A stretch of 34,291 nt of DNA from Actinomyces sp. Its GTDB lineage: Bacteria; Actinomycetota; Actinomycetes; Actinomycetales; Actinomycetaceae. The position numbers and the translations under genes are program-made. The DNA is taken from NCBI RefSeq assembly GCF_030524025.1, contig NZ_JAUNHI010000006.1, positions 69,730-104,020 of the forward strand, in the 5' to 3' direction. Under the pieces are notes generated by a model. That model made no database searches. It was not told the origin of the DNA and saw nothing but the letters and a program-made list of their open reading frames with translations. Each line of letters opens with the position of its first letter. The stretch's first letter is position 1. Shown here one piece after another: positions 3,296-19,559 of this stretch.

Positions 3296-3719
3296 ATGCG
3301 CCCGTCCTGCGCATCGCGGACCGGCTCCCCGTGCAGCGGGGTGTCCCGGCGTGTCGTTCTGGGCCTGCCGGTGCTCGGCGTGGCGGGGGCTCTGGCGGCC
3401 TGCTCGGATGAGGAGAAGCCAGTGGTGCGCACGACCGCCACGCCCACCGTCCGCGCCGGTCGACGTCGAGCAGGTGACCGTCTTCGTGTCGCGTTGCGGC
3501 TTCGTCACCGTTGCCGTGCTCGACGCCGATGCCGACGGCGCCCCCGCCATGGACGTCGATGCCGTCCTGACCCAGGCCATGCCCCTGGACGACCCCACTG
3601 CACCCGCAGGCCTGGAGCGCTACGCCGAGGCCATCGACGGATCGAGCGCCGGGCTGACCACCGAGGAGGAGACCACGGTCGATAGGGGCGAGTGCGCCTC
3701 TCGGGCAGGGGCGGCCTGA
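3296..3719 (+). pseudogene. frameshifted small lipoprotein gene
   Basis: A strong SD (GGGAGG) lies 5 nt before the ATG at 3296. The first frame gives a twin-Arg-containing lipoprotein signal peptide with lipobox ALAAC (Cys36), followed by SDEEKPVVRTTATPTV. After about position 3455 this frame degenerates into Arg-rich sequence. The +1 frame continues plausibly from APVDVEQVTVFVSRCGF to the stop at 3717-3719, with acidic, Ala-rich, normal codon usage. The reading frame therefore shifts once, near 3450-3465, within a run of Pro/Ala codons. A repaired product would be about 140 residues. It could be a true inactivated gene or a one-base sequencing error. The function is unknown; the neighbouring lipoproteins belong to the pilus region. 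Confidence 0.65.
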
Positions 3720-3733
3720 GGGGCGATGGCCCC

Positions 3734-3762
3734 TGTCGAAGGACGCCGGTAGCAGATATTTT
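3734..3762 (+). promoter_or_regulatory. likely promoter of the large pilin gene
   Basis: A TGTCGA -35 box (3734-3739) is separated by 17 bp from a TATTTT -10 box (3757-3762). The expected transcript start lies about 30 nt before the gene's ATG. TATTTTG recurs at 3776-3782. The local AT-richness stands out against the flanking DNA. Confidence 0.4.
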
Positions 3763-3796
3763 GAGAACAAGTAAGTATTTTGCGGAGGAGGAAACC

Positions 3797-5275
3797 ATGA
3801 TACAGCGACGTATCGACAGTCGTGAGCAGGGTGCAGCGACTGTGGAGTACGTCGGAATCGCATTCGTCGTTCTTGCGCTCATTCTGGTCATCGGAGCGAT
3901 GACCATGTCCGGCTCCGGAATCGCCTCAGCGATCGCCTGCAAAGTTGGGGAGGTGCTTGGGGCGGCAAGTTGCACGGCCGAGGAGGAGCATTCGGTCGTG
4001 CCACAGCCCGGAGATGTCGTCGTCAGCAGGGACGATGAGCGTCACTCGGCGAAAGGGACCGGTGCGGGGAACATTGGTGTTGTCGAGGCAGGTCTTTCCG
4101 TCACTGATGGTGGGACGCAGTCCTACCAAAGGAACGCTGATGGTTCCGGCTCGATCACCATCGGAGAGTCCTGGGCGGGGAGCGCGCACGGAAGCGTTGG
4201 AAAAGATATTGATAGTGGGTCCGCCGAGGTTGCTCTGCAGGCTAAGCTCGAGGGTGAGGTCCAGTACAATACTGACCAGGTCTACAACTGCCGCTACGGG
4301 GCGGCTGAAGGGGAGCGGGACTGCGAAGAGTTTCGGCAGCAATGGTCTAGGCAGCTGGCGGCAAAGGCGGACCAGGGTGTCGCGGACATGCTCAACGAGG
4401 ACGACACGATCGACGAAAACCCCGACGAAATTCGCGAATCTTGGCAGGGTAGGATAGCGATTACGGGAGAGGCGGGCGTCGAGGTCGAGGAGACCAAGGC
4501 GGGGGAGGTGAACCTCTCGGCCTCTGGGAAGATCGAGGGAGGCACTCGTTGGGATAGTACCTACGGAGTTGACGAGAATGGTGAAAAAGGACAGAAAAAG
4601 GGGTACTCGCAGACATACTTCTACTCCCTCGGAGGGGGTGCCAATGCCAGCGTCAAGCTCATGGAGGAGGAGTTCAACAGCTCCGGTATCGAGATAGCGG
4701 GATCCGCTGGCGTAAAAGTGAGCGGTGATGTCGGCGTCGAAACTAAGTACGAGTGGGATGAAAATGGAAATCTCTCCAAAGTGACGTTCACGACAACGAG
4801 CAACGTGCAAGGTGGGGCTCAGGCTGACGTCGGTGCCGAGGGAGAAGACAAGACGGGTGCAGACACCTCGCCGGCCGGTGGTCATCTCGATGTGCAGGGC
4901 GGACAGGCCGTGGAGACAACGGTGGCCATCGACATGGCATCTCTTACTGACGCCGAGAGGGCGACGGTTGAGCAGTATGTGGGATCGTTCCAGGGCTACA
5001 GTCCGATACTTCCCGCCGCGGCGTACAATCCGTCCAGCCCCGCGGCCCCGGATGATGCGCTGGGGACGGTCATCCACGAGAATGCGACTGTGACCAGGTC
5101 CGTTTACTCGACGCGCACCGCGTCGGAGGAGAACACCCTCGATGCGTGGTTCCTATCGTACACGACCTCTTCCGAGTACCAGAACAGGACCCTTGTCTCA
5201 CAGCAGTACCTGGCCGAGCCCGGGGCGGACGGCCGCCGACAGTACGTAGACACCCCTGGAGTGAATGTACCATGA
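3797..5275 (+). CDS. large Flp-type prepilin with long C-terminal domain
   Basis: The product is 492 residues, chosen from the ATG at 3797, which follows a strong SD (GGAGGAGG). A 12-residue basic leader ends in Gly12. The sequence after it is AATVEYVGIAFVVLAL, the type IVb/Flp prepilin signature with Glu at +5 and Tyr at +6. It closely matches the small Flp at 14841, sharing VEYVGIAF, the VIGAM motif and the IAS-IA-KV-E tail. Where Flp ends, this protein continues for about 430 residues. That extension is rich in Gly, Glu, Asp, Ser and Thr, contains two cysteine pairs (C48/C59 and C165/C176) and looks like beta-rich secreted sequence. No LPXTG motif or second membrane helix is seen. It probably is cleaved by the prepilin peptidase and sits in or on the Flp fibre, perhaps at its tip; that role is inference. 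The lipoprotein gene 34 bp downstream is probably co-transcribed. Confidence 0.85.
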   Translation: MIQRRIDSREQGAATVEYVGIAFVVLALILVIGAMTMSGSGIASAIACKVGEVLGAASCTAEEEHSVVPQPGDVVVSRDDERHSAKGTGAGNIGVVEAGLSVTDGGTQSYQRNADGSGSITIGESWAGSAHGSVGKDIDSGSAEVALQAKLEGEVQYNTDQVYNCRYGAAEGERDCEEFRQQWSRQLAAKADQGVADMLNEDDTIDENPDEIRESWQGRIAITGEAGVEVEETKAGEVNLSASGKIEGGTRWDSTYGVDENGEKGQKKGYSQTYFYSLGGGANASVKLMEEEFNSSGIEIAGSAGVKVSGDVGVETKYEWDENGNLSKVTFTTTSNVQGGAQADVGAEGEDKTGADTSPAGGHLDVQGGQAVETTVAIDMASLTDAERATVEQYVGSFQGYSPILPAAAYNPSSPAAPDDALGTVIHENATVTRSVYSTRTASEENTLDAWFLSYTTSSEYQNRTLVSQQYLAEPGADGRRQYVDTPGVNVP

Positions 5276-6326: not shown

Positions 6327-7127
6327 ATGCTCCTCCTTCGAGGCCGAGATATTCTCGGTCCTGGCCTGCCTCCGGAACTCGATATCGACGAGGCTGCTCG
6401 CCGGCTCGCCGTTGGCGGCTCAGACTCTGTTCTGCTGGTGTCGAAATCAGGTCGGGATGCGCATGCGGCTGGAATGCTGAGGCAGGCGTTCGGTCCAAAC
6501 GATATTGCGGTAGTGACGCATACAACCAGCTCGCCGACGCGGCAGCTGCTCATCTCTCTGTGTCTCGCGCAGCTGATTGGTTCCAACCTCGGGCTGGCCG
6601 GCATCCTGCTCCGCGCACTGGAAGGGCAGGTCGCCACTCAAGCTCTTGTGACATCTGTGACCCGGCTGTCGTCTCCCGCGCCGTCATTGTCGCAGCACCT
6701 GCGCAGTCTCATTCCGGGAAGTATTTTCGCCATCGATGTCCAAGCGGGTAGTGTCTCATCAGTGTCCTCGCCCGAATGGCGATCAGTTGACGCGACGACC
6801 GTTGGCGCGTGGTGCACCGGAGGCAAGGCCGACAAACTCGCCGAAGGACTACACAGTAGTGGTCTGCCGCAGGTGACTGCTCCTGAGAGTGCGAGGCCGT
6901 GGGGTGCACGCGCATGGGCCGAGATGAGCACTCTGGCCGACGATCCCGACGTTCTGGTCAACCGCTTGTCCAGGGTCATTGGCTCTTCGTGTTGTCCGCA
7001 CTGCGGTCGCAGAGCCGGAGGGCGAGGTTGTCTGTTTTGCGGTACATCGGCGTCTGAGGCACCGGCGCCCGAAGTCTCTTTGCCCCGGTTGTCGGAGCCG
7101 AGGCAAGTTAGGAAGATGCGTTCATGA
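6327..7127 (+). CDS. unknown protein with C-terminal zinc ribbon, first gene of tad operon
   Basis: This 266-residue soluble protein matches no family I recognise. Residues 1-215 are a mixed alpha/beta-looking domain with no P-loop and no membrane helix. The end carries C223-x2-C226-x8-C235-x2-C238, a compact zinc-ribbon knuckle, in a Gly/Arg-rich setting. The ATG at 6327 has a GGAAGG SD about 11 nt upstream, which is rather far. The gene ends in an ATGA overlap with the CpaB-like gene, so it is translationally coupled to the pilus genes. Its position at the head of the operon suggests a pilus assembly or regulatory accessory. Confidence 0.75.
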   Translation: MLLLRGRDILGPGLPPELDIDEAARRLAVGGSDSVLLVSKSGRDAHAAGMLRQAFGPNDIAVVTHTTSSPTRQLLISLCLAQLIGSNLGLAGILLRALEGQVATQALVTSVTRLSSPAPSLSQHLRSLIPGSIFAIDVQAGSVSSVSSPEWRSVDATTVGAWCTGGKADKLAEGLHSSGLPQVTAPESARPWGARAWAEMSTLADDPDVLVNRLSRVIGSSCCPHCGRRAGGRGCLFCGTSASEAPAPEVSLPRLSEPRQVRKMRS

Positions 7128-7849
7128 ACCCTAGGCAGCGTCGAGGAGTTCTGCTCATTCTCGTGACCATCGTGGGAGCATTGGCGACTTTCGCAGCGGT
7201 ATTCTCCTATGTCAACACTGTGTCATCCCAAGTCGGGCCTATGACGACCGTCCTTCAGTTGACGACGGACGTGGCCGAACTTCAGACGATCACGAGCGAG
7301 CATGTCGCCGAGGTCGAGATCCCCGAGCGCTGGGCGCCGGAAACCGCGGTGCGTTCAACGGAGGAACTCGAAGGCATGGTCGCCTCGGGCACCTACACCG
7401 CCGGCTCGATCGTTCAGACGGGCATGTTGGAGAGCCCTCCCGGGCTGGCGCAAGGCTACCGTGAGGTGGCAATCGTCGTTGACGCTGAAACGGGCGTCGC
7501 GGGCAAGGTCCGTTCAGGTGACCATGTCGACATCTTGGCAACTATTCAAAACGAGCAGACAGGTGAGCAGACCTCGCAGGTTGTCATTCAGAACGCCTTG
7601 GTCATCGAGGTCGGGGTCGTGACTACTACAAAGGACGAGGACTCCTCTGGCAATTTCCAGGAGGGTGAGACCGTGCCGGTGACATTTGCTCTTTCGGCTG
7701 AAGACGCACTCAAGCTCACTTACGCCGAGAGTTTTGCTGTCAAGGTGCGCCTGGCACTACGCGGTGAAGGCGATGATGCCGCATCCGTGACGCAAGAATA
7801 CCCTATTCCAGGCGCACAGGAGATGCCCGATGCTGCTGTTAGTGAGTGA
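7124..7849 (+). CDS. CpaB/RcpC-like pilus assembly protein
   Basis: The protein has 241 residues with one N-terminal membrane helix (about 8-29) after a short basic start (NPRQRRG). A SAF-like region follows at about 45-115, with VAEVEIPERWAP and the GTYTAGSIVQTGML segment. The C-terminal part has the CpaB/RcpC pattern VAIVVDAETGVAGKVRSGDHVDIL. In diderms RcpC works with the secretin. Here no secretin gene is present, so in this Gram-positive setting it presumably acts in the wall zone around the fibre. It overlaps the preceding gene by 4 nt and the following gene by 20 nt. Confidence 0.8.
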   Translation: MNPRQRRGVLLILVTIVGALATFAAVFSYVNTVSSQVGPMTTVLQLTTDVAELQTITSEHVAEVEIPERWAPETAVRSTEELEGMVASGTYTAGSIVQTGMLESPPGLAQGYREVAIVVDAETGVAGKVRSGDHVDILATIQNEQTGEQTSQVVIQNALVIEVGVVTTTKDEDSSGNFQEGETVPVTFALSAEDALKLTYAESFAVKVRLALRGEGDDAASVTQEYPIPGAQEMPDAAVSE

Positions 7850-9380
7850 CGACGAATCGATTCGAATTCAGGTCGGTGCGGTTGTCGCAGAGGTCGACGG
7901 CCTTGGTGAGCTGGTGACTGCGACGACTGCTGCTCAGGCCAGGAGCTTCTTGGCCCAAGAGGGGTCGACAGTCTCATGTATGCTCGTGGACCACAACCTT
8001 GCCGATAACGTCGCCATCTCCCTCATTCAGGAGGTGGGACTGTCGCACCCATTGGTCCCCGCCGTCCTGCTGGCCCCGCAGCGAACCATCGATGTCGTTG
8101 ACCTTGCGGTTAGCGCGGGCGCGCGAGCGGTGCTCGCGGTACCGGTGTCTCTGGAGGACCTGACGAGCCGGCTGGCTCCGGTCATCGCCTGGTCGCATGC
8201 GGCACGCAGCGGGTTGGACGCCGTTGAAGCGGTCGACATGTCCCGGCGCATGGGAACGGTGACAGCAGTCGTGGGCGCCAAGGGCGGAGTCGGATCCTCC
8301 ACACTCACGCTCCTGCTCGCGTCACGGCTGGCCCGGCAGGGCCGGACCTGCGTCGTCGACCTCGATCTGCGCGGTGGTGACCTGGCTGCGATGACCGGAA
8401 TCGGGGTACGACGCTCGATCATCGATCTTGTCGACATCGCGGCGGAGATCAGTGCACGGGAGATCGCCGAGGTCATTTACCCGCTGCCAGGCGGCCTGTC
8501 ACTGCTTCCCGCCCCGGTGCAGGGTGAACGTGGTGAGGAAATGACAGAGGCCGCAACTAGGCAGATCATCACTGCCTTGCGTTATCAGTTCGATCACGTG
8601 GTACTTGACTGCGGCAGCCGTCTTGATGCCGTGCTTGCCATGGGACTGGACTGCGCGGACCGAGTCCTCGTCGTCGCCTCACAGGACGTCCAGTCTCTCC
8701 GGCGCACACGGCAGTTGACGGCAGCGATGGAGCGGCTGAGCATAGCGCGTGGGGCGTCGATCGGCCTGGTCATGAACAAGATCAACAGGAATCGGGAGAT
8801 CCAGCCCGCAGCCGCAGAAAAGATCGTCTCCGTGCAACTACTCGGCTCCATTCCTGACACGACCAACCATATAGAACTCATTGTGAACACCTCGAGCATC
8901 TTGTCGCTCCAGACGCCAGTCATGCTCAAGGCTGTGGACAGAGTTCTCGCTCGGGCGCTCTCCCTGACGGGCGCCGTTGCTTCGGCTTCGTTGCCGCCGA
9001 TGCAGGGCACCCGTGCCAAACGCAGCACACGGCGAGCCCGACGCAAGCGAGCAGGTGCGGATGAGGGGCAGCTCCTTGTTGAGTTTCCCGCCGTATTCGC
9101 CTTGGCTACACTGGTGCTGCTCGCATGTGTGCAGATTCTTAGCTACGGGGTGTCGTGGATCTATGCGACGCATGCGGCCGAGGAGGCGGCACGCGCCTAT
9201 GCAGTGGGAATGTCGACCAGCCAGGTGCACGAGGAGGTTGAAGACCGCCTTCCAGCCATCTGGGCGCAAGGCGTCAGCGTGAGTCAATCCGGGGCGTCGC
9301 AGGTCTCGGTGACTGTCGAGGTACCATCGGTGGTAGATCTCCATGCGACTGCGACCACCGGGATCGTGTGGGAGGAATGA
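7830..9380 (+). CDS. TadZ ATPase fused to a TadE-type pseudopilin
   Basis: The product is a single 516-residue frame. Residues 1-125 form a degenerate receiver domain: it starts LLLVSDDES and has LVDHNL, but the conserved Lys loop is replaced by AVPVS. Residues about 140-385 are a ParA/MinD-like ATPase of the CpaE/TadZ type, with AKGGVGSSTLT (the second P-loop Lys is Ser) and DLDLRGGDL. A very basic linker (394-410) leads to DEG413, then QLLVEFPAVF with Glu418 at +5, and a membrane helix (about 419-441) followed by HAAEEAARAYAVG. This last part is a complete TadE-type pseudopilin with a prepilin peptidase site at its start. The ATG at 7830 has an AGGAG SD and overlaps the previous gene. Met391 (position 9000) could start a free TadE with a 23-residue leader, but no SD precedes it. 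TadZ normally localises the pilus machine. Confidence 0.85.
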   Translation: MLLLVSDDESIRIQVGAVVAEVDGLGELVTATTAAQARSFLAQEGSTVSCMLVDHNLADNVAISLIQEVGLSHPLVPAVLLAPQRTIDVVDLAVSAGARAVLAVPVSLEDLTSRLAPVIAWSHAARSGLDAVEAVDMSRRMGTVTAVVGAKGGVGSSTLTLLLASRLARQGRTCVVDLDLRGGDLAAMTGIGVRRSIIDLVDIAAEISAREIAEVIYPLPGGLSLLPAPVQGERGEEMTEAATRQIITALRYQFDHVVLDCGSRLDAVLAMGLDCADRVLVVASQDVQSLRRTRQLTAAMERLSIARGASIGLVMNKINRNREIQPAAAEKIVSVQLLGSIPDTTNHIELIVNTSSILSLQTPVMLKAVDRVLARALSLTGAVASASLPPMQGTRAKRSTRRARRKRAGADEGQLLVEFPAVFALATLVLLACVQILSYGVSWIYATHAAEEAARAYAVGMSTSQVHEEVEDRLPAIWAQGVSVSQSGASQVSVTVEVPSVVDLHATATTGIVWEE

Positions 9381-9754
9381 TGCGACAGAGGCTGATAAGC
9401 GCGCTACACCGCGGCTCTGAGGAACGAGGAGCAGTGCAGACCATCGAGCTCGCCGTGTTCGTCCCGCTTCTCGTCATGATCACCATACTCATGGTGCAGG
9501 CATTTATGGCGGTGGCAACTGTGACGTCTGTCGAGGCAGCCGCCCGGGACGGAGCGCGGGCCGGTATGAACGGCCAGTCGGTGAACGCTGCGGTCGCCGC
9601 GGCATTGCCCGACTGGGTAGTTGTCCAGTCGGTGACTCGGCCGTGTGCGTCCTCCACATGCGTCCGAGTGACCGCCAGGATCCCAATCGGTATGCCTTTG
9701 CTGACCAATGAGTCAGTCACCGTCAGTCGTACCGCCTATTTTCCGGAGGGCTGA
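9380..9754 (+). CDS. TadE/TadF-like pseudopilin
   Basis: The product is about 124 residues with a short basic leader (RQRLISALHRGSEERG). It continues AVQTIELAVFVPLL and a single membrane helix, then TSVEAAARDGARAGMNG, the conserved post-helix pattern of TadE/TadF proteins. Glu lies at +6 relative to the Gly, one residue off the usual +5, so the exact cleavage position is unclear. The C-terminal domain has one cysteine pair (PCASSTCVRV). The start is either ATG 9377 or ATG 9380. GGAGG at 9371-9375 spaces better to 9380, and either start overlaps the TGA of the preceding gene. It is probably a minor subunit that helps start or anchor the fibre. Confidence 0.8.
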   Translation: MRQRLISALHRGSEERGAVQTIELAVFVPLLVMITILMVQAFMAVATVTSVEAAARDGARAGMNGQSVNAAVAAALPDWVVVQSVTRPCASSTCVRVTARIPIGMPLLTNESVTVSRTAYFPEG

Positions 9755-9756
9755 CA

Positions 9757-11055
9757 ATGGCGTTACGAGACAGGCTCGGCGGCGGTGGCGGCGTTGAGCG
9801 TCAGCGGTCGGATGATCGGGATGACCTTGTGCGGGTGTACCGTGCACGTCTGCTTGAGGAGGTCGATCTCGACGAGGTAGCGTCCCTTGACCTACCGCAG
9901 CGCAGGGCCCGGTTGGAGCGCATGCTGTCTCGCCTGCTCTCCGTTGAGGGGCCGGTGATGTCATCGCGTGAGCGTTCGTGGCTCATCCGTCGAGTGGTCG
10001 ACGACGCTGTTGGCCTGGGTGTGCTGGAGCCATTGGTCGCCGACCCATCGGTGACGGAGATCATGGTCAATGGACCGAATGACATTTTCGTTGAAAGAGC
10101 GGGACGTCTTGAGCGAGTTCCGACTCGCTTCGCATCAGAGGCCGATCTGTACCAGATGATCGACAGGATCGTGTCGACTGTGAACCGACGCGTCGACGAG
10201 TCAAGTCCGATGGCGGACGCCCGGCTTCCTGGGGGCGAGCGAGTCAACGTGATCATTCCTCCGTTGGCGCTCGATGGTCCCACCGTCACGATTAGGAGAT
10301 TTCCACAGCCTTTCCGGCTCGATGACCTGGTCGCACGGCGCAGCCTTCCGCGATCGGCTGCAAATCTGCTCGCCCTGCTCGTGCGCGCGCGGATGAATGT
10401 GCTTGTGTCTGGTGGAACCGGGAGCGGGAAAACGACCTTTCTCAACGCGCTGTCCGGCCTCATCCCTGATCGGGAGCGCATCATCACCATTGAGGACGCT
10501 GCCGAGTTGTCCTTGCAGCAGCCCCATGTCGTTCGCATGGAGGCGCGTCCGGCGAACACGGAGGGCGAGGGTGAGGTGACGATCCGTGATCTGGTTCGTA
10601 ACTCCTTGCGTATGCGCCCGGACCGCATTGTCGTCGGCGAGGTCCGCGGCGGGGAGACGCTGGACATGCTCCAAGCGATGAACACCGGTCACGAGGGATC
10701 ACTGACGACCGTCCATGCCAATTCGCCTATTGACGCACTTGCCCGGCTCGAGACTCTTGCGTCGATGTCCGACATCAGTCTTCCAGTCGAGACCCTCCGG
10801 GACCAGATCAATGGCGCGATCGACGTCATTGTTCAATTGGAGCGTGACTCTCATGGCGTGCGTCGGGCGAGCGCGATCGACGCCGTGGTCTCTCAACGAC
10901 GAGAGACCTACCAGACTCTTCCGATTATGCGCTACACCCGAAGTCCGGCCGACGAAGAAGGGCGGTTCGACATCCATCCGATCCCCTCGCAGCTTGCCGA
11001 GCGTATCGCTGCGCGGGGCTACGAGATAGGAACCCTGTTCGAGGAGGTGCCGTGA
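9757..11055 (+). CDS. TadA/CpaF secretion ATPase
   Basis: This 432-residue member of the GspE/VirB11 hexameric ATPase superfamily powers Flp pilus assembly. The N-terminal domain includes the typical LEPLVADPSVTEIMVNGPNDIFVERAG-type region near 90-115. The Walker A motif GGTGSGKTT lies at 219-227 (K225). The Asp box IITIEDAAEL, Walker B DRIVVGEVRGGE and His box GHEGSLTTVHANSP are all intact. It acts at the cytoplasmic membrane with TadB and TadC. The start at 9757 follows a GGAGGG SD 2 bp after the previous stop. Its GTGA overlap with tadB indicates coupled translation. Confidence 0.95.
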   Translation: MALRDRLGGGGGVERQRSDDRDDLVRVYRARLLEEVDLDEVASLDLPQRRARLERMLSRLLSVEGPVMSSRERSWLIRRVVDDAVGLGVLEPLVADPSVTEIMVNGPNDIFVERAGRLERVPTRFASEADLYQMIDRIVSTVNRRVDESSPMADARLPGGERVNVIIPPLALDGPTVTIRRFPQPFRLDDLVARRSLPRSAANLLALLVRARMNVLVSGGTGSGKTTFLNALSGLIPDRERIITIEDAAELSLQQPHVVRMEARPANTEGEGEVTIRDLVRNSLRMRPDRIVVGEVRGGETLDMLQAMNTGHEGSLTTVHANSPIDALARLETLASMSDISLPVETLRDQINGAIDVIVQLERDSHGVRRASAIDAVVSQRRETYQTLPIMRYTRSPADEEGRFDIHPIPSQLAERIAARGYEIGTLFEEVP

Positions 11056-11978
11056 TCACGTCCGGCGCGGTTCTTCTCGTTGCCGCTGCAACGACGATTG
11101 TGGCCAGCCTAGCAATCGTGACACTCGGTGCTGCGTCGTGGCGCAGCACCGCGATCGCGGACAGCGTGGGAGCGACAAGCGGAGGCGGGGCAGGAAGAGT
11201 CCTTGCGAGACTCGATCGTGTGCTCGGCACGCTGGGTGTTACTCGCGCCGTGGCGAAGCGGTTGTCGGGGGCGGGCCTAAGTTGGTCACCGGTCAAGGTG
11301 ATAGTGATCGTCGTCGCTATCGATGTCGTTCTGTTCGTCGTCATCCGCACTCTCGTCGGCAATATCGGAGCGCTGGTAATAGCCGCCTCGTTTCCTGTCA
11401 TCTTTTTCCGGTGGGTTCACACGAAAGTGGTGCAGCGAACAGAGAGGTTCATCGCCCAGCTTCCCGAGCTGGCAAGGCTGCTGGCAAACGCGACGAGCGC
11501 CGGGCTGTCTCTGGAGCGCGCGCTTCTGCTCGCAGCCAGAGAGATGCCCGAGCCCGCCGCCAGTGAGCTCGCCCGCGTTACTGCGCAGATTGGTGTCGGC
11601 TGGACCTTCGATGCCGCCCTGAACGACTTAAGCGAGCGGATGCCGTCCCGAGAGCTTAACGTGCTGGTCAGGACCTTGCTCATCCAGTCACGGACGGGCG
11701 GAGGTCTTGTGGGGGCGTTGCAGGATATTGCTCTGTCACTCGATGAGCGCAAGGAGCTGAGGCGTGAGGTGCGGACTGTGATTCTTGGCTCAGCGATCAG
11801 TGGCTACATTGTTCCGGTGTTGGGAATCGGATCAGTGCTGTTCTTGAACCTGATGGAGCCCGGTATTCTCGACGAGATGATGAGGTCGTTCATCGGTCAG
11901 ATGATAATTTTTCCCTCCGTTCTGCTGTTTGGGCTCGGCGCGCTGTTGATGCGCGCTGTCTCCAGGGTCGAGGTGTGA
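11052..11978 (+). CDS. TadB platform protein (type II secretion F domain)
   Basis: This 308-residue polytopic membrane protein starts with GTG overlapping the tadA stop. It has an N-terminal helix, a helix pair around residues 80-120, a cytoplasmic GspF/T2SF domain and two C-terminal helices. The GspF domain contains LARLLANATSAGLSLERALLLAAREMPEP-type and TGGGLVGALQDIALSLDERKELRREVRT-type segments. With TadC it forms the inner-membrane platform that the TadA ATPase drives. Its position between tadA and tadC is the standard order. Confidence 0.9.
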   Translation: MITSGAVLLVAAATTIVASLAIVTLGAASWRSTAIADSVGATSGGGAGRVLARLDRVLGTLGVTRAVAKRLSGAGLSWSPVKVIVIVVAIDVVLFVVIRTLVGNIGALVIAASFPVIFFRWVHTKVVQRTERFIAQLPELARLLANATSAGLSLERALLLAAREMPEPAASELARVTAQIGVGWTFDAALNDLSERMPSRELNVLVRTLLIQSRTGGGLVGALQDIALSLDERKELRREVRTVILGSAISGYIVPVLGIGSVLFLNLMEPGILDEMMRSFIGQMIIFPSVLLFGLGALLMRAVSRVEV

Positions 11979-11981
11979 TCG

Positions 11982-12872
11982 ATGGCTGTCATATTTGCGG
12001 CCCTGGCAATGGTGATGGTCTTGGTTGCCGCGTACGGCATTCGGTTGATCAGGGCGGATGTCGCTACGGATCTGCTTCCGGTCGAGGAGGGTCATGCGAC
12101 TGAGGATCGGGTTCCGGGTCCATTCGTACGGCTCATTGATTTTCTGGGAATGCGTTTTCAGCGCACGCTCAGGCGGATCTACGGCCCCATGCGGATCAAG
12201 GCCCTTGATGCGCGGCTCAAGAACGCAGGCAATCCTGAGGGGCTCTTTCTTGACCTGTTTATGCAGCGGGAGGCGGGCTTTGTCGTCTTGGCTGGTTGTA
12301 TCGGCTTCTTTTTCGCGCTCACCGGTCGTTGGCTCCTCGGGTTGCTCCTCGCCGTTGTGTTCGGCGGCTGGATGCACTTGTGGCTCATCGCGGCAGCACG
12401 TAAACGTCGGGCGGAGATCGATCGGGACCTGCCGGACTTTCTCGACGTACTGGCAGTGACCGTGAGGTCGGGCCTTCCTTTCCGTTCTGCTCTGGAGCGC
12501 GTAAGCGTCAACTTCGAGGGTGCGATCGCTGAGGAAATGATGCGCGCGCTCCATGAGATGCGGTTGGGCGCTTCGCGGAGAGACGCTTTTGTCGCCCTCC
12601 GTGAGCGCTGTGGCTCCCAGAACATCTCCACTTTTGTGGGTGCGCTCCTGCAATCCGAGGAGTTGGGGACGCCCATCGCAGATGCTCTCGTCTCGATCAC
12701 GTCCGAGATTCGAAAGGAGCGTGCGCAGGAGGTCAGGAGGGCTGCCGCTAGGGCGCAACCGAAAGTCACCCTTGTGGCGACCGTGACGATGTTGCCCGGC
12801 GCCATGATCCTTATGGCGGGTGGAATCATTTTCTCCAACCGCGAGGTATTGGCTGGAATGTTCGGGGGCTGA
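11982..12872 (+). CDS. TadC platform protein (type II secretion F domain)
   Basis: The protein has 296 residues. An N-terminal membrane helix is followed by a paired helix region around 90-130 and a GspF domain with DLPDFLDVLAVTVRSGLPFR and the ALLQSEELGTPIADAL motif. A C-terminal helix (about 268-290) ends the protein. It is the partner of TadB in the assembly platform. It starts 3 bp after tadB and ends in an ATGA overlap with the sensor kinase gene, which ties the two-component system to the pilus operon. Confidence 0.9.
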   Translation: MAVIFAALAMVMVLVAAYGIRLIRADVATDLLPVEEGHATEDRVPGPFVRLIDFLGMRFQRTLRRIYGPMRIKALDARLKNAGNPEGLFLDLFMQREAGFVVLAGCIGFFFALTGRWLLGLLLAVVFGGWMHLWLIAAARKRRAEIDRDLPDFLDVLAVTVRSGLPFRSALERVSVNFEGAIAEEMMRALHEMRLGASRRDAFVALRERCGSQNISTFVGALLQSEELGTPIADALVSITSEIRKERAQEVRRAAARAQPKVTLVATVTMLPGAMILMAGGIIFSNREVLAGMFGG

Positions 12873-14092
12873 TGATGGGTGTGAGGGACGTTGTGGCGGT
12901 CGAGTGGCGGGTGGAGCGCGATGCGGTCGCGGGTGCGGCCGCCTTCATCTGCGATATCCGCCTTGGGCTGCTTGTGCTCATCGAGTGGGGCCTGTTGCTC
13001 ACAGATGCCTCATTGGCGTCCATCGTCGTCATCGTCATTGCGATGGGCATGAGTTGGATCCCGCTCAAACTATTCAAAAGCACGCCAGCCGATCGCCTCC
13101 TCGGGTGGAGCTTCGTGGCTGCCGATGCTGTCTTGTGCTGTGTCGTGACCGTGGTCGCCATTCCGGTGTTTGCTGGCGCATTCTACCTTGTACCTGGTTA
13201 TGTCATCGCGTCGGGCTTGCTCGTCGGGCTGCTGCTCGCAGGGTTGAAGTCGGCGGTGTGGACCACCTGCGTCATCTGGGCTCTGGTCCTCGGGGCTTTC
13301 TTTGAGAGGCGGATGGCGCCGGAGTTCTTCGGACTGGCGGTCGTGGGAGTCACCGTGGTCGCCGTGTACTTCGGCCACCGACTTCGTGATCGGATGCGAC
13401 ATGTGGCCCGGATATCCGCGGAGCTGGCGCAGGCGCGTGCCAGCGAACGGGGGGTATCTGAACGGTTGATGATAGCGCGTGATCTTCATGATTCCCTGGC
13501 AAAGAGCGTTCACGGAATTCGGATGCTCGCTGAGACGCTTCACGCCTCTCTGGAGTCCAGTGCTCACCCGGATACTGCGCTCAGTCGAGCGCTATTCGAT
13601 TCGGCAGATGAGGCCAGTCGCGAGGCGCGGCTTGTGCTCGACGGACTCCGCATCCCCTGTCAGGGGGATCTCGTGTCGGTGCTCGTGGAGGAGGTCCGTC
13701 GCTGGGGCGCGCGTACAGGGGTCGGAGTCGTCGTCGAGCCGGTTGGCGGGCATGCTCGCGCATGGCAGTGCGACAGTGACACGTTGTGGCAGTTGCAGCG
13801 GATCATCGGCGAGATCCTGTCGAACGTTGAGAAGCACGCGCAAGCGGAGACCGTTCGCTTCAAGGCGCAGATGGCTGACGGTGTCAGTATCGAGATCACC
13901 GATGATGGTGTCGGCCTGAACGCTTCCGACAGGGATCTGGTGGGTTCCGGGCACTATGGGTTGTCAGGCATCCGAGAACGGGTCAGAGAGCTCGGGGCGG
14001 AGTTCTCTCTGGACTCGCGCCCGGAACCGGACGTGGGCGTGCGGGCACGTCTTTTGGTGCCGGCCAGGATTCTGACTGAGCGGAGGGCGTAG
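12872..14092 (+). CDS. membrane sensor histidine kinase (NarL/DegS-type)
   Basis: The protein has 406 residues. The first half holds about six membrane helices (roughly 30-175) and no recognisable ligand-binding domain, so it probably senses something in or near the membrane. A HisKA_3 dimerisation region carries the phospho-acceptor His206 in ARDLHDSLAKSVHG. The ATP-binding domain shows the N box with Asn318 (EILSNVEKHA), the G box DDGVGL (344-349) and GHYGLSGIRERV. All catalytic motifs look intact. The ATG overlaps the tadC stop, and the partner response regulator follows after 2 bp. It likely adjusts pilus expression, by context. Confidence 0.9.
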   Translation: MMGVRDVVAVEWRVERDAVAGAAAFICDIRLGLLVLIEWGLLLTDASLASIVVIVIAMGMSWIPLKLFKSTPADRLLGWSFVAADAVLCCVVTVVAIPVFAGAFYLVPGYVIASGLLVGLLLAGLKSAVWTTCVIWALVLGAFFERRMAPEFFGLAVVGVTVVAVYFGHRLRDRMRHVARISAELAQARASERGVSERLMIARDLHDSLAKSVHGIRMLAETLHASLESSAHPDTALSRALFDSADEASREARLVLDGLRIPCQGDLVSVLVEEVRRWGARTGVGVVVEPVGGHARAWQCDSDTLWQLQRIIGEILSNVEKHAQAETVRFKAQMADGVSIEITDDGVGLNASDRDLVGSGHYGLSGIRERVRELGAEFSLDSRPEPDVGVRARLLVPARILTERRA

Positions 14093-14094
14093 TT

Positions 14095-14721
14095 ATGAAG
14101 GTGTTGATTGTCGATGACAATGCGATCGTCTTGGCCGGTTTGAGGGCGGTTCTCGGGAGGGTCGGCAGTGTGACGAGTGTGATCGAGGCGTCGAATGCCT
14201 TCGAGGCGCTTGAGCGTGTCGCGGCAGATTGCCCGGACATCGTTTTGCTCGATGTCGCGATGCCGCCTGGGCGCTCCGGCGTCGACATTCTCCCCGAGAT
14301 CGTTGAGCGGGCAGCGGTCATTATGCTGACCTCCAACCAGGACCCGGTGACGATCCGGCGGGCTCTGGACTGCGGGGCGCGCGGCTACCTCATCCACGGG
14401 CAACTGGGCATCCATGAGGTTTCCGGTGCGATTGAGACCTGCGTCAATGGCGGGTTGGTTCTCGGCAGGGAGGCCGCCGAGGTCATGCTGTCCGGTGGGT
14501 CGGAGACCCGAAGCAACCCGCTCAGACAACTGCTCTCCGAGAGGGAGGCGGAGGTCGTCGAGCTTGCCGCGCAGGGTCTGAGCAATGCGGAGATCGCCAG
14601 GAAGCTCTTCCTGTCCGAACGGACCGTCAAGAACAACCTCAACGCCGCATACCCCAAGATCGACGTCCACACGCGCGCCGAGGCGGTGGCAGCCTGGCTC
14701 AGGGCGTCAGGGGGGCGGTAG
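14095..14721 (+). CDS. LuxR-type response regulator
   Basis: The protein has 208 residues. The receiver domain (1-120) has acidic residues D7/D8, phospho-acceptor D53 (VLLDVAMP) and T79. The invariant switch Lys is replaced: GYLIHGQLG has His101 where GYLLK would be expected. A LuxR/GerE helix-turn-helix domain (about 142-205) contains LSEREAEVVELAAQGLSNAE and SERTVKNNLN. It lies directly behind the kinase gene. The likely targets are the tad promoter near 6215 and perhaps the flp promoter, by inference. The missing Lys could alter phosphorylation-dependent switching. Confidence 0.9.
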   Translation: MKVLIVDDNAIVLAGLRAVLGRVGSVTSVIEASNAFEALERVAADCPDIVLLDVAMPPGRSGVDILPEIVERAAVIMLTSNQDPVTIRRALDCGARGYLIHGQLGIHEVSGAIETCVNGGLVLGREAAEVMLSGGSETRSNPLRQLLSEREAEVVELAAQGLSNAEIARKLFLSERTVKNNLNAAYPKIDVHTRAEAVAAWLRASGGR

Positions 14722-14723
14722 AG

Positions 14724-14759
14724 GGGGCGTTGGCCCCTTCGCGAGGGGCGCTCAGCCCC
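14724..14759 (+). terminator. nested hairpin between regulator and flp
   Basis: The inner stem GCCCC/GGGGC (14733-14737 with 14745-14749) nests within the outer stem GGGGC/GCCCC (14724-14728 with 14755-14759). It immediately follows the regulator stop. It may partially terminate the long tad transcript or protect the 5' end of an flp message. A TAGTAT at 14761-14766 could be an flp -10 box, although its -35 (TTCGCG) is poor. Confidence 0.35.
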
Positions 14760-14840
14760 GTAGTATCGGCTTCAGCGAGGAGGTCGAACGACGATCCTCG
14801 GGTTGCCGCCATATGGCACTTTTCTTTGGAGGAGGATCTC

Positions 14841-15059
14841 ATGAGCAACTCTCTGCTTCGTGTCCAGGTTCGCATGCAGCAGGCATGGTACTCGTTCCGC
14901 GAGAACGAGCGCGGTCAGGCAATGGTCGAGTATGTTGGCATCGCCTTTATCGTTCTCGCCCTCGTCGGCGTCGTGATCGGGGCGATGTCTTCGCAGGGCA
15001 AGGACATCGCCAGTACGATCGCGGATAAGGTCAAGGAGGCCATCGACGGTGTCGGCTAG
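14841..15059 (+). CDS. major Flp pilin
   Basis: The product is a 72-residue prepilin. The ATG at 14841 follows an excellent SD (GGAGGAGG, 5 nt spacing), as expected for an abundant structural protein. The 25-residue leader ends in NERG, then QAMVEYVGIAFIVLAL, with Glu at +5 and Tyr at +6. The mature subunit is only 47 residues, mostly one hydrophobic helix with a charged tail. It is exported by the TadABC machine after cleavage by the prepilin peptidase (probably the gene at 17561-18313) and polymerises into the adhesive fibre. Its position last in the operon, with a separate leader and a strong terminator, suggests independent high expression. Confidence 0.93.
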   Translation: MSNSLLRVQVRMQQAWYSFRENERGQAMVEYVGIAFIVLALVGVVIGAMSSQGKDIASTIADKVKEAIDGVG

Positions 15060-15138: not shown

Positions 15139-15193
15139 TTGCTCTGTCTGTTATACACTAATCCCATATTCATCCTGACCCTGAGGAGTTGTG

Positions 15194-16795
15194 ATGCGTC
15201 GTCGTTCGTTGCTTGCTCTGTCGTGTGCTGGTGTGCTGGGTGTGCCGGTGGTGGTGGCTTGTTCCGGTGATAGCGGGTCGGGGGAGGCGGGCTCGACGGG
15301 GTCGGCGGATGGGTCGGCCGGGGCTTCTGCGGGGGTCTCGGGGTCGGCTGCTGGTGGTGGTCAGGGCTGGCAGTCGCGGCAGGTCATGGTGCTGGGGCAC
15401 TCGTTGACGGTTGATGTCGGGCCCGTGGTGGTGATGGATGAGTCGACCAGCTTGCTGCCGGTGCGGATCACGCGCGCGGCCGATGACCCGGTCGCCGGGG
15501 AGTTCAGTCTTTTCTCTGTGTGGAATGGTGTGAGTATGCAGCCGTCTCCTGGGGGTGTGCGTCTGGTGGATCCCGTGGGCGGGCAGGTGTGGGTCTCGAC
15601 GGCGCAGTCCTTGGTGGACTGGGAGCTGGCGCCGGGGGCCTCGGAGCTTGGTGGTGTGCCCTTCGGTGCGGTGGGGGTCGAGGCGGTCACGGTCATGCTG
15701 CCGCAGGCGGGTTTCGTTGAGGTCCAGGTCCAGGCGCGCCAGGAGGCGGAGGGCTCCCTGGGCGAGGGTGTGGACCTTGACGCCCTGCTCGAGGCGGTGG
15801 GTCATGACCCCGAGCTGGCCGAGCCGGTGGCGCTGGAGCGTTTCACCACGGCTTTGGACCAGTCCTCCGACACCTTGCGGACCGAGGAGTCGGTGACGGT
15901 CAATGTCGCCGGGGACGTGACCTTCGACTCCGACTCGGCGGCCCTGAGCGCGCAGGCCGACGCGGTCCTGGAGTCGGTGGCCGTCCAGGTCGAGTCCTTT
16001 CCCGACGGGGGCAGCCTGACGATCACCGGTCACACCGATGATGTGGCCGAGGATGCCTACAACCAGACCCTGTCCGAGCAGCGGGCCCAGGCGGTGGCCG
16101 ACAGGCTGGGGTCCTTGACGGACCTGTCGGCCTGGCAGGTCAGCGTGTCGGGCAAGGGCGAGACCCAGCCGCGGGTGGCCGACACCAGTGAGGAGGCGCG
16201 GGCCGCCAACCGGCGGGTCGAGGTGGTGGTCACCCCCACCGGCGGGGCGGGCGCCCAGGGCTCGTCCAGCGGCTCGGGCGAGCTGCCCGAGCCCCAGGGC
16301 CCGGTGGCCACCGGGGCCCAGGGGGTCACCGTGGACTGGCCAGACGGTGATGGCGGCCAGGTCATCATTCGCCTGCCACAGGTGGTGCGCCGCGGCGGGT
16401 ACCTGTTCGGCGAGGTCGAGGTCACCGGCGGGACCGGCGGCAGCGTCCAGCTCCTGGGGGTGTGGTTCTCCCCGCCCGACGGTGCTGCCGGCAACCCCCG
16501 CCAGGAGGATGACACCTGGACCGAGTCCCTGCGGGTCACGGACGGGCTGACCCTGGCCGCCGACGGACAGCGCCTGTACGTGGCCGACTACATGTCGGCC
16601 GCCAAGGACGTCCACCTCAGCCTCACCGAGCTCGACAACAACGAGGAGCTCGCCGAGGGGATGACCACGACCCTGTGCGCCGTGTGGCCCGACACCGACC
16701 AGGACACCGTCACCCTCGACTTCGGCACCAGCGACGAGCCCGGCGCCACCAACCGCCCCTGGCGCCTGACCGACATCCCCGTCACCGAGGCCTAA
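15194..16795 (+). CDS. OmpA-domain lipoprotein
   Basis: The protein has 533 residues. The ATG at 15194 has a GAGGAG SD 5 nt away, which favours it over the GTG at 15191. The signal peptide has lipobox VVVAC (Cys23) followed by a long Gly/Ser linker. The domain at about 60-200 is unassigned. Residues about 233-348 are an OmpA/MotB-like peptidoglycan-binding domain with TGHTDD (Asp282) and, 15 residues on, Arg297. This matches the Asp/Arg pair that binds diaminopimelate or an equivalent. A C-terminal domain of about 150 residues ends in WRLTDIPVTEA. A remnant of a second copy of this end lies at 455-592. It probably anchors the pilus machine to the wall; OmpA-type proteins are frequent at Tad loci. 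The tadG-like gene follows 13 bp later. Confidence 0.88.
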   Translation: MRRRSLLALSCAGVLGVPVVVACSGDSGSGEAGSTGSADGSAGASAGVSGSAAGGGQGWQSRQVMVLGHSLTVDVGPVVVMDESTSLLPVRITRAADDPVAGEFSLFSVWNGVSMQPSPGGVRLVDPVGGQVWVSTAQSLVDWELAPGASELGGVPFGAVGVEAVTVMLPQAGFVEVQVQARQEAEGSLGEGVDLDALLEAVGHDPELAEPVALERFTTALDQSSDTLRTEESVTVNVAGDVTFDSDSAALSAQADAVLESVAVQVESFPDGGSLTITGHTDDVAEDAYNQTLSEQRAQAVADRLGSLTDLSAWQVSVSGKGETQPRVADTSEEARAANRRVEVVVTPTGGAGAQGSSSGSGELPEPQGPVATGAQGVTVDWPDGDGGQVIIRLPQVVRRGGYLFGEVEVTGGTGGSVQLLGVWFSPPDGAAGNPRQEDDTWTESLRVTDGLTLAADGQRLYVADYMSAAKDVHLSLTELDNNEELAEGMTTTLCAVWPDTDQDTVTLDFGTSDEPGATNRPWRLTDIPVTEA

Positions 16796-17560: not shown

Positions 17561-18313
17561 TCATACGATGGCAAGGGCCCAGGAGAGCCATGCACCGGCG
17601 ACCAGATACGGGCCGAAAGCCATGCGGTCCTTTCGCCCAACACGACGCAATGCGATGAAAACAATTGCCGCAAGCCCACCGGCGAAGAAGCCCAGGAGAA
17701 GACCGGCAACCGGAACCCACAGCGCAAAACGCCCCAGCCATAGTCCGAGCACTGCCCACAACTTGACGTCACCGATGCCTAAACCTGATGGCAGCATCGC
17801 CGTGACAGTCAGCGCGGCCACCATGCTGATCGTGCACAGGATGGCGCGTAAGCCGGGCCATACGGCGGCCTCCAGTGACGCCCCAGTAGCCAGGTCAACA
17901 ATGAGCAGCATCAGAGTCGCGCCGACGATCCAGGCACCCGCGCAGAGCAGAAGGATGTTCGGCAGGCGGTGGCACACGGCGTCAACGGTGCAGGCGACGC
18001 ACAGCACGGCCATGAGAGGGACGGCGACCACAGTGGCGGCGGTTGCCTGGTTGATGACGCCCCATGTTGTGGTCAGACCGATAACAACGAGTGCCAGGCA
18101 TGCTTGAGGCAACCGCTCGAGGAGCGCGGGGAAGCGGATCGAGGTTTCGTCCCCGTCTGTCATGTCCGGCAACATCCCAGCACTCGGCGCGTGGTCGATC
18201 CCGGCCTCGAGCCGCAACTCATTGACATAACGCCTGGCGACTGTGCTCAACGGCCCAACCACGAGCAACATGGAGGCGGCGGCGATCGCGATGAGGAGCA
18301 GGGTGGCGGCCAT
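17561..18313 (-). CDS. A24-family prepilin peptidase (TadV/CpaA-like)
   Basis: This 250-residue polytopic aspartyl protease has two conserved catalytic aspartates: Asp111 in TVDAVCHRLPN and Asp182 in GLGIGDVKLW. About six to seven helices are visible. The N-terminal methylase domain of PilD is absent, and a charged loop of about 35 residues (33-66) follows the first helix. It should cleave the G|XXXXE sites of Flp (14841), the large Flp-like protein (3797) and the pseudopilins. The start uses an ATG (complement of 18311-18313) with a GAGAGG SD. It is convergent with the tadG-like gene (14 bp between stops) and divergent from the lipoprotein unit at 18543. Confidence 0.9.
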   Translation of the reverse strand: MAATLLLIAIAAASMLLVVGPLSTVARRYVNELRLEAGIDHAPSAGMLPDMTDGDETSIRFPALLERLPQACLALVVIGLTTTWGVINQATAATVVAVPLMAVLCVACTVDAVCHRLPNILLLCAGAWIVGATLMLLIVDLATGASLEAAVWPGLRAILCTISMVAALTVTAMLPSGLGIGDVKLWAVLGLWLGRFALWVPVAGLLLGFFAGGLAAIVFIALRRVGRKDRMAFGPYLVAGAWLSWALAIV

Positions 18314-18340
18314 GGAGCATAGCCTCTCACATCGATCGAC

Positions 18341-18356
18341 AACAGGCACGCCTGTT
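18341..18356. promoter_or_regulatory. operator-like inverted repeat in a divergent intergenic region
   Basis: The perfect inverted repeat AACAGGC-AC-GCCTGTT lies 28 bp upstream of the prepilin peptidase start and upstream of the rightward lipoprotein unit. Its size and symmetry suit a dimeric regulator controlling one or both divergent transcripts. Confidence 0.4.
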
Positions 18357-18424
18357 ATTCGAGTTCTCTCAAGGAGACGTCCTTGCCTGCGAGGTGTCAC
18401 TGGCGTGCTGACACAGGAGCCACG

Positions 18425-18505
18425 ATGGGCTGCGTGCCCGTGTGGCTCGGGCCGATGTGGACCGTGGCGCTCCTGCTGCTGACAGGGTGTTCGTCGAAGC
18501 GTTAG
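18425..18505 (+). CDS. possible 26-residue mini-lipoprotein
   Basis: This short frame has an AGGAG SD 5 nt before ATG 18425. It encodes a hydrophobic segment, VALLLLTG, then the lipobox LLTGC with Cys22, and stops after CSSKR. Processing would leave a five-residue lipopeptide. The N-terminus lacks the usual positive charge. A plausible promoter for the next gene overlaps its 3' end, so the frame could be a chance product or a lipoprotein remnant. Nothing else supports it as a gene. Confidence 0.3.
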   Translation: MGCVPVWLGPMWTVALLLLTGCSSKR

Positions 18506-18508
18506 AGT
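18479..18508 (+). promoter_or_regulatory. likely promoter of the lipoprotein gene at 18543
   Basis: CTGACA (18479-18484) lies 18 bp before TAGAGT (18503-18508). The predicted transcript starts about 28 nt upstream of the ATG, enough for the GGAGG ribosome binding site. Confidence 0.45.
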
Positions 18509-18542
18509 GCTGGCATCTCGTCTGACACTCCGGAGGTCCTCT

Positions 18543-19559
18543 ATGAAACTCAGCCGCAGGCTCGTTATCGCCGGGAGTGCTGTGATGTCCGCGTTTCTCC
18601 TGCCGGGATGCAGCGCGGATGGCGCCGGCGACCCGGCCACAGGATCCCCGACCGTGCCCTCGGACTGGGCAACCGACGTCATGGAGCCCCTGACGATCAG
18701 GGTCCCTGCCGATCTCACCCCCTGGTCTCAAGCCAGCGGGTCCGCTTCGTTCTACTGGGACCGCGCGTGGTCGACGGCCCCGGAGGAGCTTGGCACGTCG
18801 ACGGTTCTGCTGGCGCGCCTGTGGGGACCTGGGGCCGCCCAAGATGTCAGTGCCGCCCAGGCCGTACAGTCGTTGGCCAAGATCACCGGCGTCAGCCCTG
18901 CGACGGGCAAGGTCAATGAACTCGGCGACGGATCTCTGTGGCAGGAGTTGAGCGGATCGTCAGCCAAGGGGGCGGTGTGGGACCTGACGAACGGGATGAG
19001 CCGAGCGATCGCGGTGCTCTTCGGCCCCGAGGTGGATGATGCGCTGATCGCCTCGGTCGGTGCCGGGCTAGCCCTGGACGAGGAGGCGGAGATGCCGGCA
19101 CTGGCTGCTGGCTGGCAGCGCCGACAGGCGAACGGCGTGTCTGTTGCGGTCGGTGCGTCATGGAACGATGTCGGGCAGCCCGAGATGGGCGGCGACGTCG
19201 GTGTCTGGCAGCGGGGGTGGACCCGCCGGGTCGACGAGGCAGGTCTGCCGGTCGGTGCAGTCATGGTCGGCGCTAACCTCGCCGGCGCCTCGGTGACGGA
19301 GGCGGCCTCCGCGGTCCTCGTGGCGCCTGGTGTCACCGCCTTGCGGGACACCGTCACGACGGCATTCGCGACCGAGAACATCGAGGAGGGGCAACGGGTC
19401 GATTTCACCTGGGGCAACGGTGCCTCACACGCAGGCTCACTGTGGGTGGCTCGCGGCGAAGAGACGATCGACGGGGTGATGTACCTCTACTGGTCGGGAC
19501 CCGATGAGACCTTCGTCGCTGCTCGCGGGGTGATCGAGGCGTCCATCGCTGCCGTGTGA
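18543..19559 (+). CDS. lipoprotein with two related domains, function unknown
   Basis: The protein has 338 residues. The ATG at 18543 has a GGAGG SD 6 nt away. The signal peptide has lipobox LLPGC (Cys23), followed by an Ala/Gly/Asp linker. The mature part appears to be two copies of one domain, about 45-190 and 195-338. Each has a W-x-R-x-W segment (FYWDRAWS and GVWQRGWTR), then a beta-rich stretch and an Ala-rich helix (VSAAQAVQSL and VTEAASAVLV). The family is unknown; it loosely recalls LpqN/PsbP-like folds. It sits between the pilus genes and the ribosomal-protein operon and is transcribed divergently from the prepilin peptidase. A surface role is likely. Confidence 0.8.
   Translation: MKLSRRLVIAGSAVMSAFLLPGCSADGAGDPATGSPTVPSDWATDVMEPLTIRVPADLTPWSQASGSASFYWDRAWSTAPEELGTSTVLLARLWGPGAAQDVSAAQAVQSLAKITGVSPATGKVNELGDGSLWQELSGSSAKGAVWDLTNGMSRAIAVLFGPEVDDALIASVGAGLALDEEAEMPALAAGWQRRQANGVSVAVGASWNDVGQPEMGGDVGVWQRGWTRRVDEAGLPVGAVMVGANLAGASVTEAASAVLVAPGVTALRDTVTTAFATENIEEGQRVDFTWGNGASHAGSLWVARGEETIDGVMYLYWSGPDETFVAARGVIEASIAAV

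Follow-up and report, generated by a model that had tools for sequence, protein, structure and literature searches.

A conserved TadZ-TadE fusion of Actinomycetota, a predicted pilus-machine precursor with a prepilin peptidase-type site at its junction

Background

A model of the Caulobacter Tad machine arranges six dimers of CpaE (TadZ) round the motor CpaF, beneath the membrane, and puts the minor pilin-like proteins CpaJ, CpaK and CpaL onto the platform prior to extension (PMC13170226). In Myxococcus, Tad pilus polymerisation requires minor pilin tips, said to require the prepilin peptidase (PMC12075869). Pilin leaders are described as variable in length and their processing as taking place at the cytoplasmic side (PMC10191384), the site of Flp pilins being given as G/XXXXEY (PMC4322843). 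The criteria given in a legend of the PilFind paper include a maximum length of 350 aa and a first membrane helix within the first 50 residues (PMC3244431).

Several described systems resemble parts of the locus studied here. The tad loci of Micrococcus luteus likewise encode the Tad system of an actinobacterium, TadE/F minor pilins included; they differ in that the species is reported to lack TadZ, the fusion there being that of TadB with TadC (PMC4322843). In M. tuberculosis, tadZ and tadE are separate (PMC9531140), whereas they are fused here. The modular pilins PilB and PilC of S. sanguinis are likewise type 4 pilins to which a further domain has been added, but that domain is displayed on the filament, whereas in the fusion it precedes the cleavage site, on the cytoplasmic side (PMC10191384). 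A large fraction of actinobacterial Tad systems is reported to have no identifiable minor pilins and TadC (PMC6668835). No published description of a TadZ-TadE fusion was found in the open-licence literature, which is not proof of absence.

In this work, we focused on such a fusion in Actinomyces sp., located in a window of 34,291 nucleotides (i.e. the whole stretch of DNA analysed). What is new is a conserved precursor arrangement of known parts, the processing of which is predicted.

Methods

Relatives were sought in Actinomyces genomes, in family, order, class and phylum samples (the last three searched with single-protein queries) and in genome_contigs, where a single-protein search found no relative and an alignment-based search succeeded. 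The class sample comprised 394 genomes, in which 114 places were found and 111 covered, L185 from the order sample being included. Loci were sorted with two HMMs built from 27 fusions, so that a weak TadE may be missed.

A fresh unbiased MAFFT alignment was made of 52 non-redundant fusions (at most 80% identity over TadZ). This alignment, the start-codon counts and the counts of separate TadE cover the loci other than L002, L003, L023-L032, L041-L055, L190 and those fetched later (the phylum sample among them). The counts of 85 distinct junctions and of gene boundaries cover the loci other than L041-L055 (larger regions round genes already counted) and L190 (a peptidase). The TadZ tree was built from the loci other than L093-L135, L181, L183-L189 and those fetched later, after removal of rows more than 85% identical and of short matches.

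Results and discussion

Structure of the fusion gene

A preliminary description had read the gene as one uninterrupted frame, in which a degenerate receiver and a ParA-like TadZ ATPase run into a basic linker, then the junction DEG|QLLVEF and a TadE-type helix. All these elements were recovered, as follows:

7830..9380, plus strand: tadZ-tadE fusion gene, 516 aa in one open frame
7830..8186, plus strand: atypical receiver (REC-like) domain, about residues 1-119 (Pfam Response_reg, AlphaFold2 model)
8253..8969, plus strand: ParA/MinD-type TadZ ATPase, about residues 142-380, with the Walker motif GAKGGVGSST
8976..9068, plus strand: basic linker, residues 383-413, predicted to be disordered and ending in Gly413
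9066..9083, plus strand: prepilin peptidase-type site G413|QLLVE418 (fusion-junction alignments)
9069..9377, plus strand: TadE minor pilin part, residues 414-516 (AlphaFold2, NF041390, HMM of fused C-terminal parts)

By inspection, the ORF has no internal stop and begins with an ATG preceded by AGGAG 7 nt 5' of it. Pfam Response_reg matched residues 3-115 at 23.6 bits, under the cut-off of 30.2, and was found at E<=0.01 in all 27 fusion members. Pfam AAA_31 matched residues 144-303, and the deviant Walker A (KGGVG), i.e. K151, G152, G153, V154 and G155, was invariant in the alignment of the 27 fusions. TIGR03815, an equivalog model for the actinobacterial CpaE homologue Ssd that does not cover all TadZ, gave 2.6e-16 and 59.7 bits, under its cut-off of 154.45. 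The AlphaFold2 model (input of 27 sequences), in which a REC-like and an ATPase domain precede the linker, had a mean pLDDT of 87.3 and a pTM of 0.51, and its top Foldseek matches were ParA/MinD ATPases, including 3ea0 and MinD. The fifth match was 3fkq, a two-domain Eubacterium rectale protein, which we take to be the published E. rectale TadZ structure.

The linker (pLDDT below 50 at residues 383-416) is hypervariable and hardly alignable among the 27 fusions, its length ranging from 28 to 256 residues over the 85 distinct junctions. In the predicted TadE part, a long helix (418-458) is followed by a small alpha/beta domain. NF041390 (TadE_Rv3655c) matched residues 423-508 at 8.1e-5, under its cut-off. 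Family models see the fusion poorly: Pfam TadE (PF07811) had no match to the window fusion at E<=0.1 and matched 11 of the 27 fusions at E<=0.01. The HMM built on the fused C-terminal parts recovered separate TadE genes.

The N-terminal part thus resembles TadZ/CpaE in the order of its domains, the Walker motif, the Foldseek similarity to ParA/MinD-type ATPases and to 3fkq, and the synteny with cpaB and tadABC. It differs in that known TadZ end after the ATPase, followed in CpaE by an amphipathic helix (PMC13170226), whereas the fusion adds a linker and a whole TadE. The C-terminal part shares with TadE/TadF pseudopilins the (E/D)xG|xxxxE site, the N-terminal helix, the small alpha/beta domain and the position before a second TadE; however, their leader is a short peptide, against 413 residues with two folded domains here.

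Genomic context

The gene sits within a tad locus, in synteny with cpaB and tadABC, of which the main members are:

7124..7849, plus strand: CpaB/RcpC (TIGR03177, above cut-off), overlapping the start of the fusion by 20 nt
9377..9754, plus strand: second TadE-type minor pilin, encoded separately and TadF-like (Pfam TadE match at 5.4e-6, over its cut-off)
9757..12872, plus strand: tadA, tadB and tadC (Pfam T2SSE, T2SSF)
14730..15059, plus strand: Flp-type major pilin with G|QAMVEY (sequence inspection)
17561..18718, minus strand: A24 prepilin peptidase, the single A24 match in the whole genome

The second TadE gene starts at an ATG at 9377 or 9380, overlapping the stop of the fusion, and GGAGG stands at 9371-9375. 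Pfam Flp had no match to the pilin at 14730-15059; the product of a gene 3' of it matched Pfam Tad (TadE/G-like). The peptidase scored 30.2 bits in the six-frame genome search, above the cut-off, and 23.2 bits as a whole ORF, under the cut-off of 26.5.

Other genes of the window were read from the sequence. Between tadC and flp, at 12872-14721 (plus strand), lie histidine kinase-like and response regulator-like genes, which suggests two-component control of the tad locus. The product of 3692-5275 (plus strand) has a Flp-like start, REQG|AATVEYVGIAFVVLALILVIGAM, resembling the motif of the Flp-type pilin, and a C-terminal part of more than 400 residues; no NCBIfam model matched it, and it is possibly a modular Flp pilin. 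Adjoining the pilin genes, 15191-16795 (plus strand) encodes a lipoprotein-like protein with the segment ITGHTDDVAEDAYNQTLSEQRAQAVADRL, presumably OmpA-like.

Conservation of the junction

The codons of Gly413 and Glu418 lie at 9066-9068 and 9081-9083, and the prepilin-type site first proposed there was supported by the alignments. Both residues were invariant in 27/27 aligned fusions, at identities down to 24%. In the 52-fusion alignment, position -1 was Gly in 52/52, position +5 was Glu in 51 and Asp in one, and position -3 was Glu in 28, Asp in 22 and Gln in two. The 85 distinct junctions, for which site placement required a +5 acid and a helix after it and on which we rely for -1 only, had Gly at -1 in 85/85, Glu at +5 in 83 and Asp in two, and at -3 Glu in 40, Asp in 37 and Gln in eight, i.e. 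an acid at -3 in 77/85, as in separate TadE. TadE-type genes near unfused TadZ (taken at -50 to +600 nt, and possibly including second TadE genes) had Gly at -1 in 49/50 and Glu at +5 in 50/50, and second TadE genes beside fused ones had 69/70 at each of these positions, site placement in both sets having favoured Gly/Ala and Glu/Asp. The fused site is thus conserved to much the same degree as the site of ordinary TadE.

The fusions with Asp in place of Glu at +5 are L080 (Actinotalea) and L274. In L070 and L090 (Solirubrobacterales MAGs), the fused ORFs extend about 160 and 240 residues past the TadE match, and their TadE may carry an extra outer domain.

We consider it likely that the fusion is a pilus-machine precursor, in which TadZ would be a removable leader of about 400 residues, with a predicted cut after Gly413 by the A24 peptidase. 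Judging from the site, the usual prepilin peptidase probably splits the TadZ-TadE chain at the junction. A TadE prepilin would be made with TadZ (the REC-like domain and the ParA/MinD-type ATPase) as its first 413 residues. The helix of TadE would insert N-in/C-out, so that TadZ would stay on the cytoplasmic side, at the place of machine assembly. The A24 peptidase of the tad locus would then cleave after Gly413. On one side, the cut would free TadZ, whose tail, being strongly basic, could hold it close to the membrane; on the other, it would free the mature TadE N-terminus for polymerisation, Glu5 priming or joining the pilus tip. The precursor would in this way bring the ATPase and the priming pilin to one place, cleavage being a putative assembly step. 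That the only A24 match of the genome falls within the tad locus of the fusion argues for cleavage. No precedent for a leader of such size was found in the open-licence literature.

Internal initiation and possible artefacts

TadE could also be made by internal initiation, or the join could be an error of sequencing or assembly, both of which we regard as very improbable. The window fusion does contain an ATG (Met391) 22 codons and a TTG 25 codons before Gly413, and a start codon (ATG, GTG or TTG) was present 5-40 codons before the Gly in 36/52 fusions. Yet, as already remarked for Met391 in the preliminary description, no SD-like 4-mer was found upstream of either candidate. A start codon was absent in 16/52 fusions, against 0/50 separate TadE near unfused TadZ and 2/70 second TadE, and a start with an SD-like 4-mer occurred in 10/52 fusions (an ATG with such a 4-mer in 4/52), against 30/50 and 52/70, respectively. 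Put the other way, 42/52 fusions have no SD-like start, compared with 20/50 separate TadE. As 16 of the 52 fusions have no start codon near the Gly, separate initiation cannot be general, and internal initiation was rejected as a rule; single species may use an internal TadE start. A frameshift or a stop between the two parts was likewise rejected, as was a sequencing error, given the open frame, the aligned relatives and the 85 distinct fused junctions, the last of which rule out a local error.

Distribution of the fusion

The fusion was found again in relatives, as a search suggested in the preliminary description might show, and the opposite of separate tadZ and tadE genes in all close relatives was observed. 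A close match (E <= 5.2e-81) was present in 20/49 Actinomyces genomes and was fused in 20/20; the other 29 had distant ParA-like matches only. Named matches were A. oris, A. johnsonii, A. gerencseriae, A. bowdenii and A. succiniciruminis. Other named fusions belong to Cellulomonas, Isoptericola, Actinomadura, Aeromicrobium, Kineosporia, Phycicoccus, Actinotalea, Janibacter and Nocardioides, and fusions were also seen in MAGs of Egibacteraceae, Dermatophilaceae, Actinomycetales and Solirubrobacterales.

In the family sample, 13/151 genomes matched at 1e-25, and the eight newly fetched loci comprised seven fused and one split (L036, with TadE just downstream). The 25 newly fetched loci of the order sample were 15 fused, two split and eight without TadE nearby. 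Among the 111 loci of the class sample, 26 were fused, 44 were split (TadE within 700 nt) and 41 had no TadE found nearby; as unfused forms are here the commoner (44 vs 26), the fusion is dispensable for a Tad system. The phylum sample (396 genomes) gave 30 loci, 13 of them fused, i.e. nine new ones (L271-L279) and four re-fetches (L280, L281, L290 and the window itself as L291). In genome_contigs, the best 80 of 448 candidates comprised 23 fused loci and 13 split ones; the remaining 44, among them those of Chloroflexi and other phyla, had no TadE nearby. Every fusion found was from Actinomycetota, other phyla having been sampled only via these best 80 of 448 candidates. A plasmid search for an annotated copy of the fusion gave no match at 1e-15. 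The TadZ-TadE fusion is thus conserved and widespread in Actinomycetota, a phylum in which the unfused state, too, is common.

Fused and unfused forms

On a tree built by a quick method from 72 TadZ (56 fused and 16 unfused, the label 'split' meaning unfused and being given also to L084, with no TadE in view), at least six changes between fused and unfused labels were counted, five of them forced by starred branches. Because no root was inferred and some branches are long, gain and loss of the fusion are indistinguishable on this tree, and counts of fusions are not counts of independent events, since fused states cluster. The f27/g72 group, which clusters with named Streptomyces, contains both forms, and unfused genes stand in sister lineages. 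Such recurrent switching fits interchangeable forms doing the same work, as removal of the leader would give, both forms then yielding two proteins.

The next gene boundary served as a control. TadE and TadE2 were fused in 0/142 distinct cases, compared with 84/141 for TadZ and TadE, in a comparison of related, non-independent genes the sampling of which started from a fused query. Where the genes are separate, the median spacing from stop to TadE domain is 38 nt for TadE|TadE2 and 40 nt for TadZ|TadE. The absence of TadE-TadE2 fusions is what a need for the site to be turned towards a cytoplasmic peptidase would predict: such a fusion would place the second site outside the membrane and therefore beyond its reach, whereas TadZ-TadE keeps the site inside. 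The argument from an inner N-terminus and an outer C-terminus, already made from the window, survived this comparison.

The tails of unfused TadZ of Streptomyces and of the f27/g72 group often resemble a TadE cleavage site cut off short. The pattern [DE]R[GAV][SA] followed by 2-4 residues and R[RKV] fitted 23/174 unfused tails (all phyla, some re-fetched copies). Unfused loci with site-like tails include L076, L077, L085, L156, L157, L161, L164, L192, L194, L195, L198, L199, L203, L205, L206, L209 and L212, among others. In the fused L144, L145, L148 and L149, a site-like motif and the real site stand in tandem.

These data also bear on two readings in which the chain would stay whole, always or in part. 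In the first, the uncut fusion would be permanent, the TadE helix anchoring TadZ in the membrane at the pilus base in place of the C-terminal amphipathic helix by which CpaE is said to reach the membrane (PMC13170226); the long hydrophobic helix of the AlphaFold2 model indeed comes after the corresponding region. However, an anchor has no need of an invariant -1 Gly and a +5 acid beside a hypervariable linker, the TadE domain remains complete, and sister lineages have unfused genes, so that we hold this reading to be unlikely. Cleavage is favoured over it because of the invariant -1 Gly with the +5 acid, the recurrent switching and the fact that TadE and TadE2 are never fused.

The second concerns stoichiometry, which is a difficulty for the precursor model, since a machine contains many copies of TadZ but presumably few of TadE. 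Six CpaE dimers per machine (PMC13170226) are hard to square with TadE supplied 1:1, unless the excess TadE is discarded. With partial processing, a full-length fraction would be anchored TadZ and a cut fraction would supply TadE, the peptidase setting the ratio. This would reconcile the two numbers, and the features of the site are intact, but it requires regulated or inefficient cleavage, and we give it as small a chance as the permanent anchor.

Conclusions

Beyond a removable TadZ leader, which we favour, a broader reading is put forward tentatively, with somewhat less than an even chance: the prepilin peptidase would act as a polyprotein processor on a TadZ-TadE precursor of Actinomycetota, perhaps ancestral in the phylum, a single cut licensing both positioning and priming. 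The ATPase would reach the membrane still joined to its minor pilin and then be cut, and the DRG(S/A)xxFRRR-like tails of unfused Streptomyces TadZ could be a fossil of the old site.

If the precursor model is true, the prepilin peptidase would remove whole folded cytoplasmic domains, which would extend the meaning of 'leader', and there would be a 1:1 genetic link between a positioning ATPase and a minor pilin. The fusion may also partly explain the seemingly missing minor pilins of actinobacterial Tad systems.
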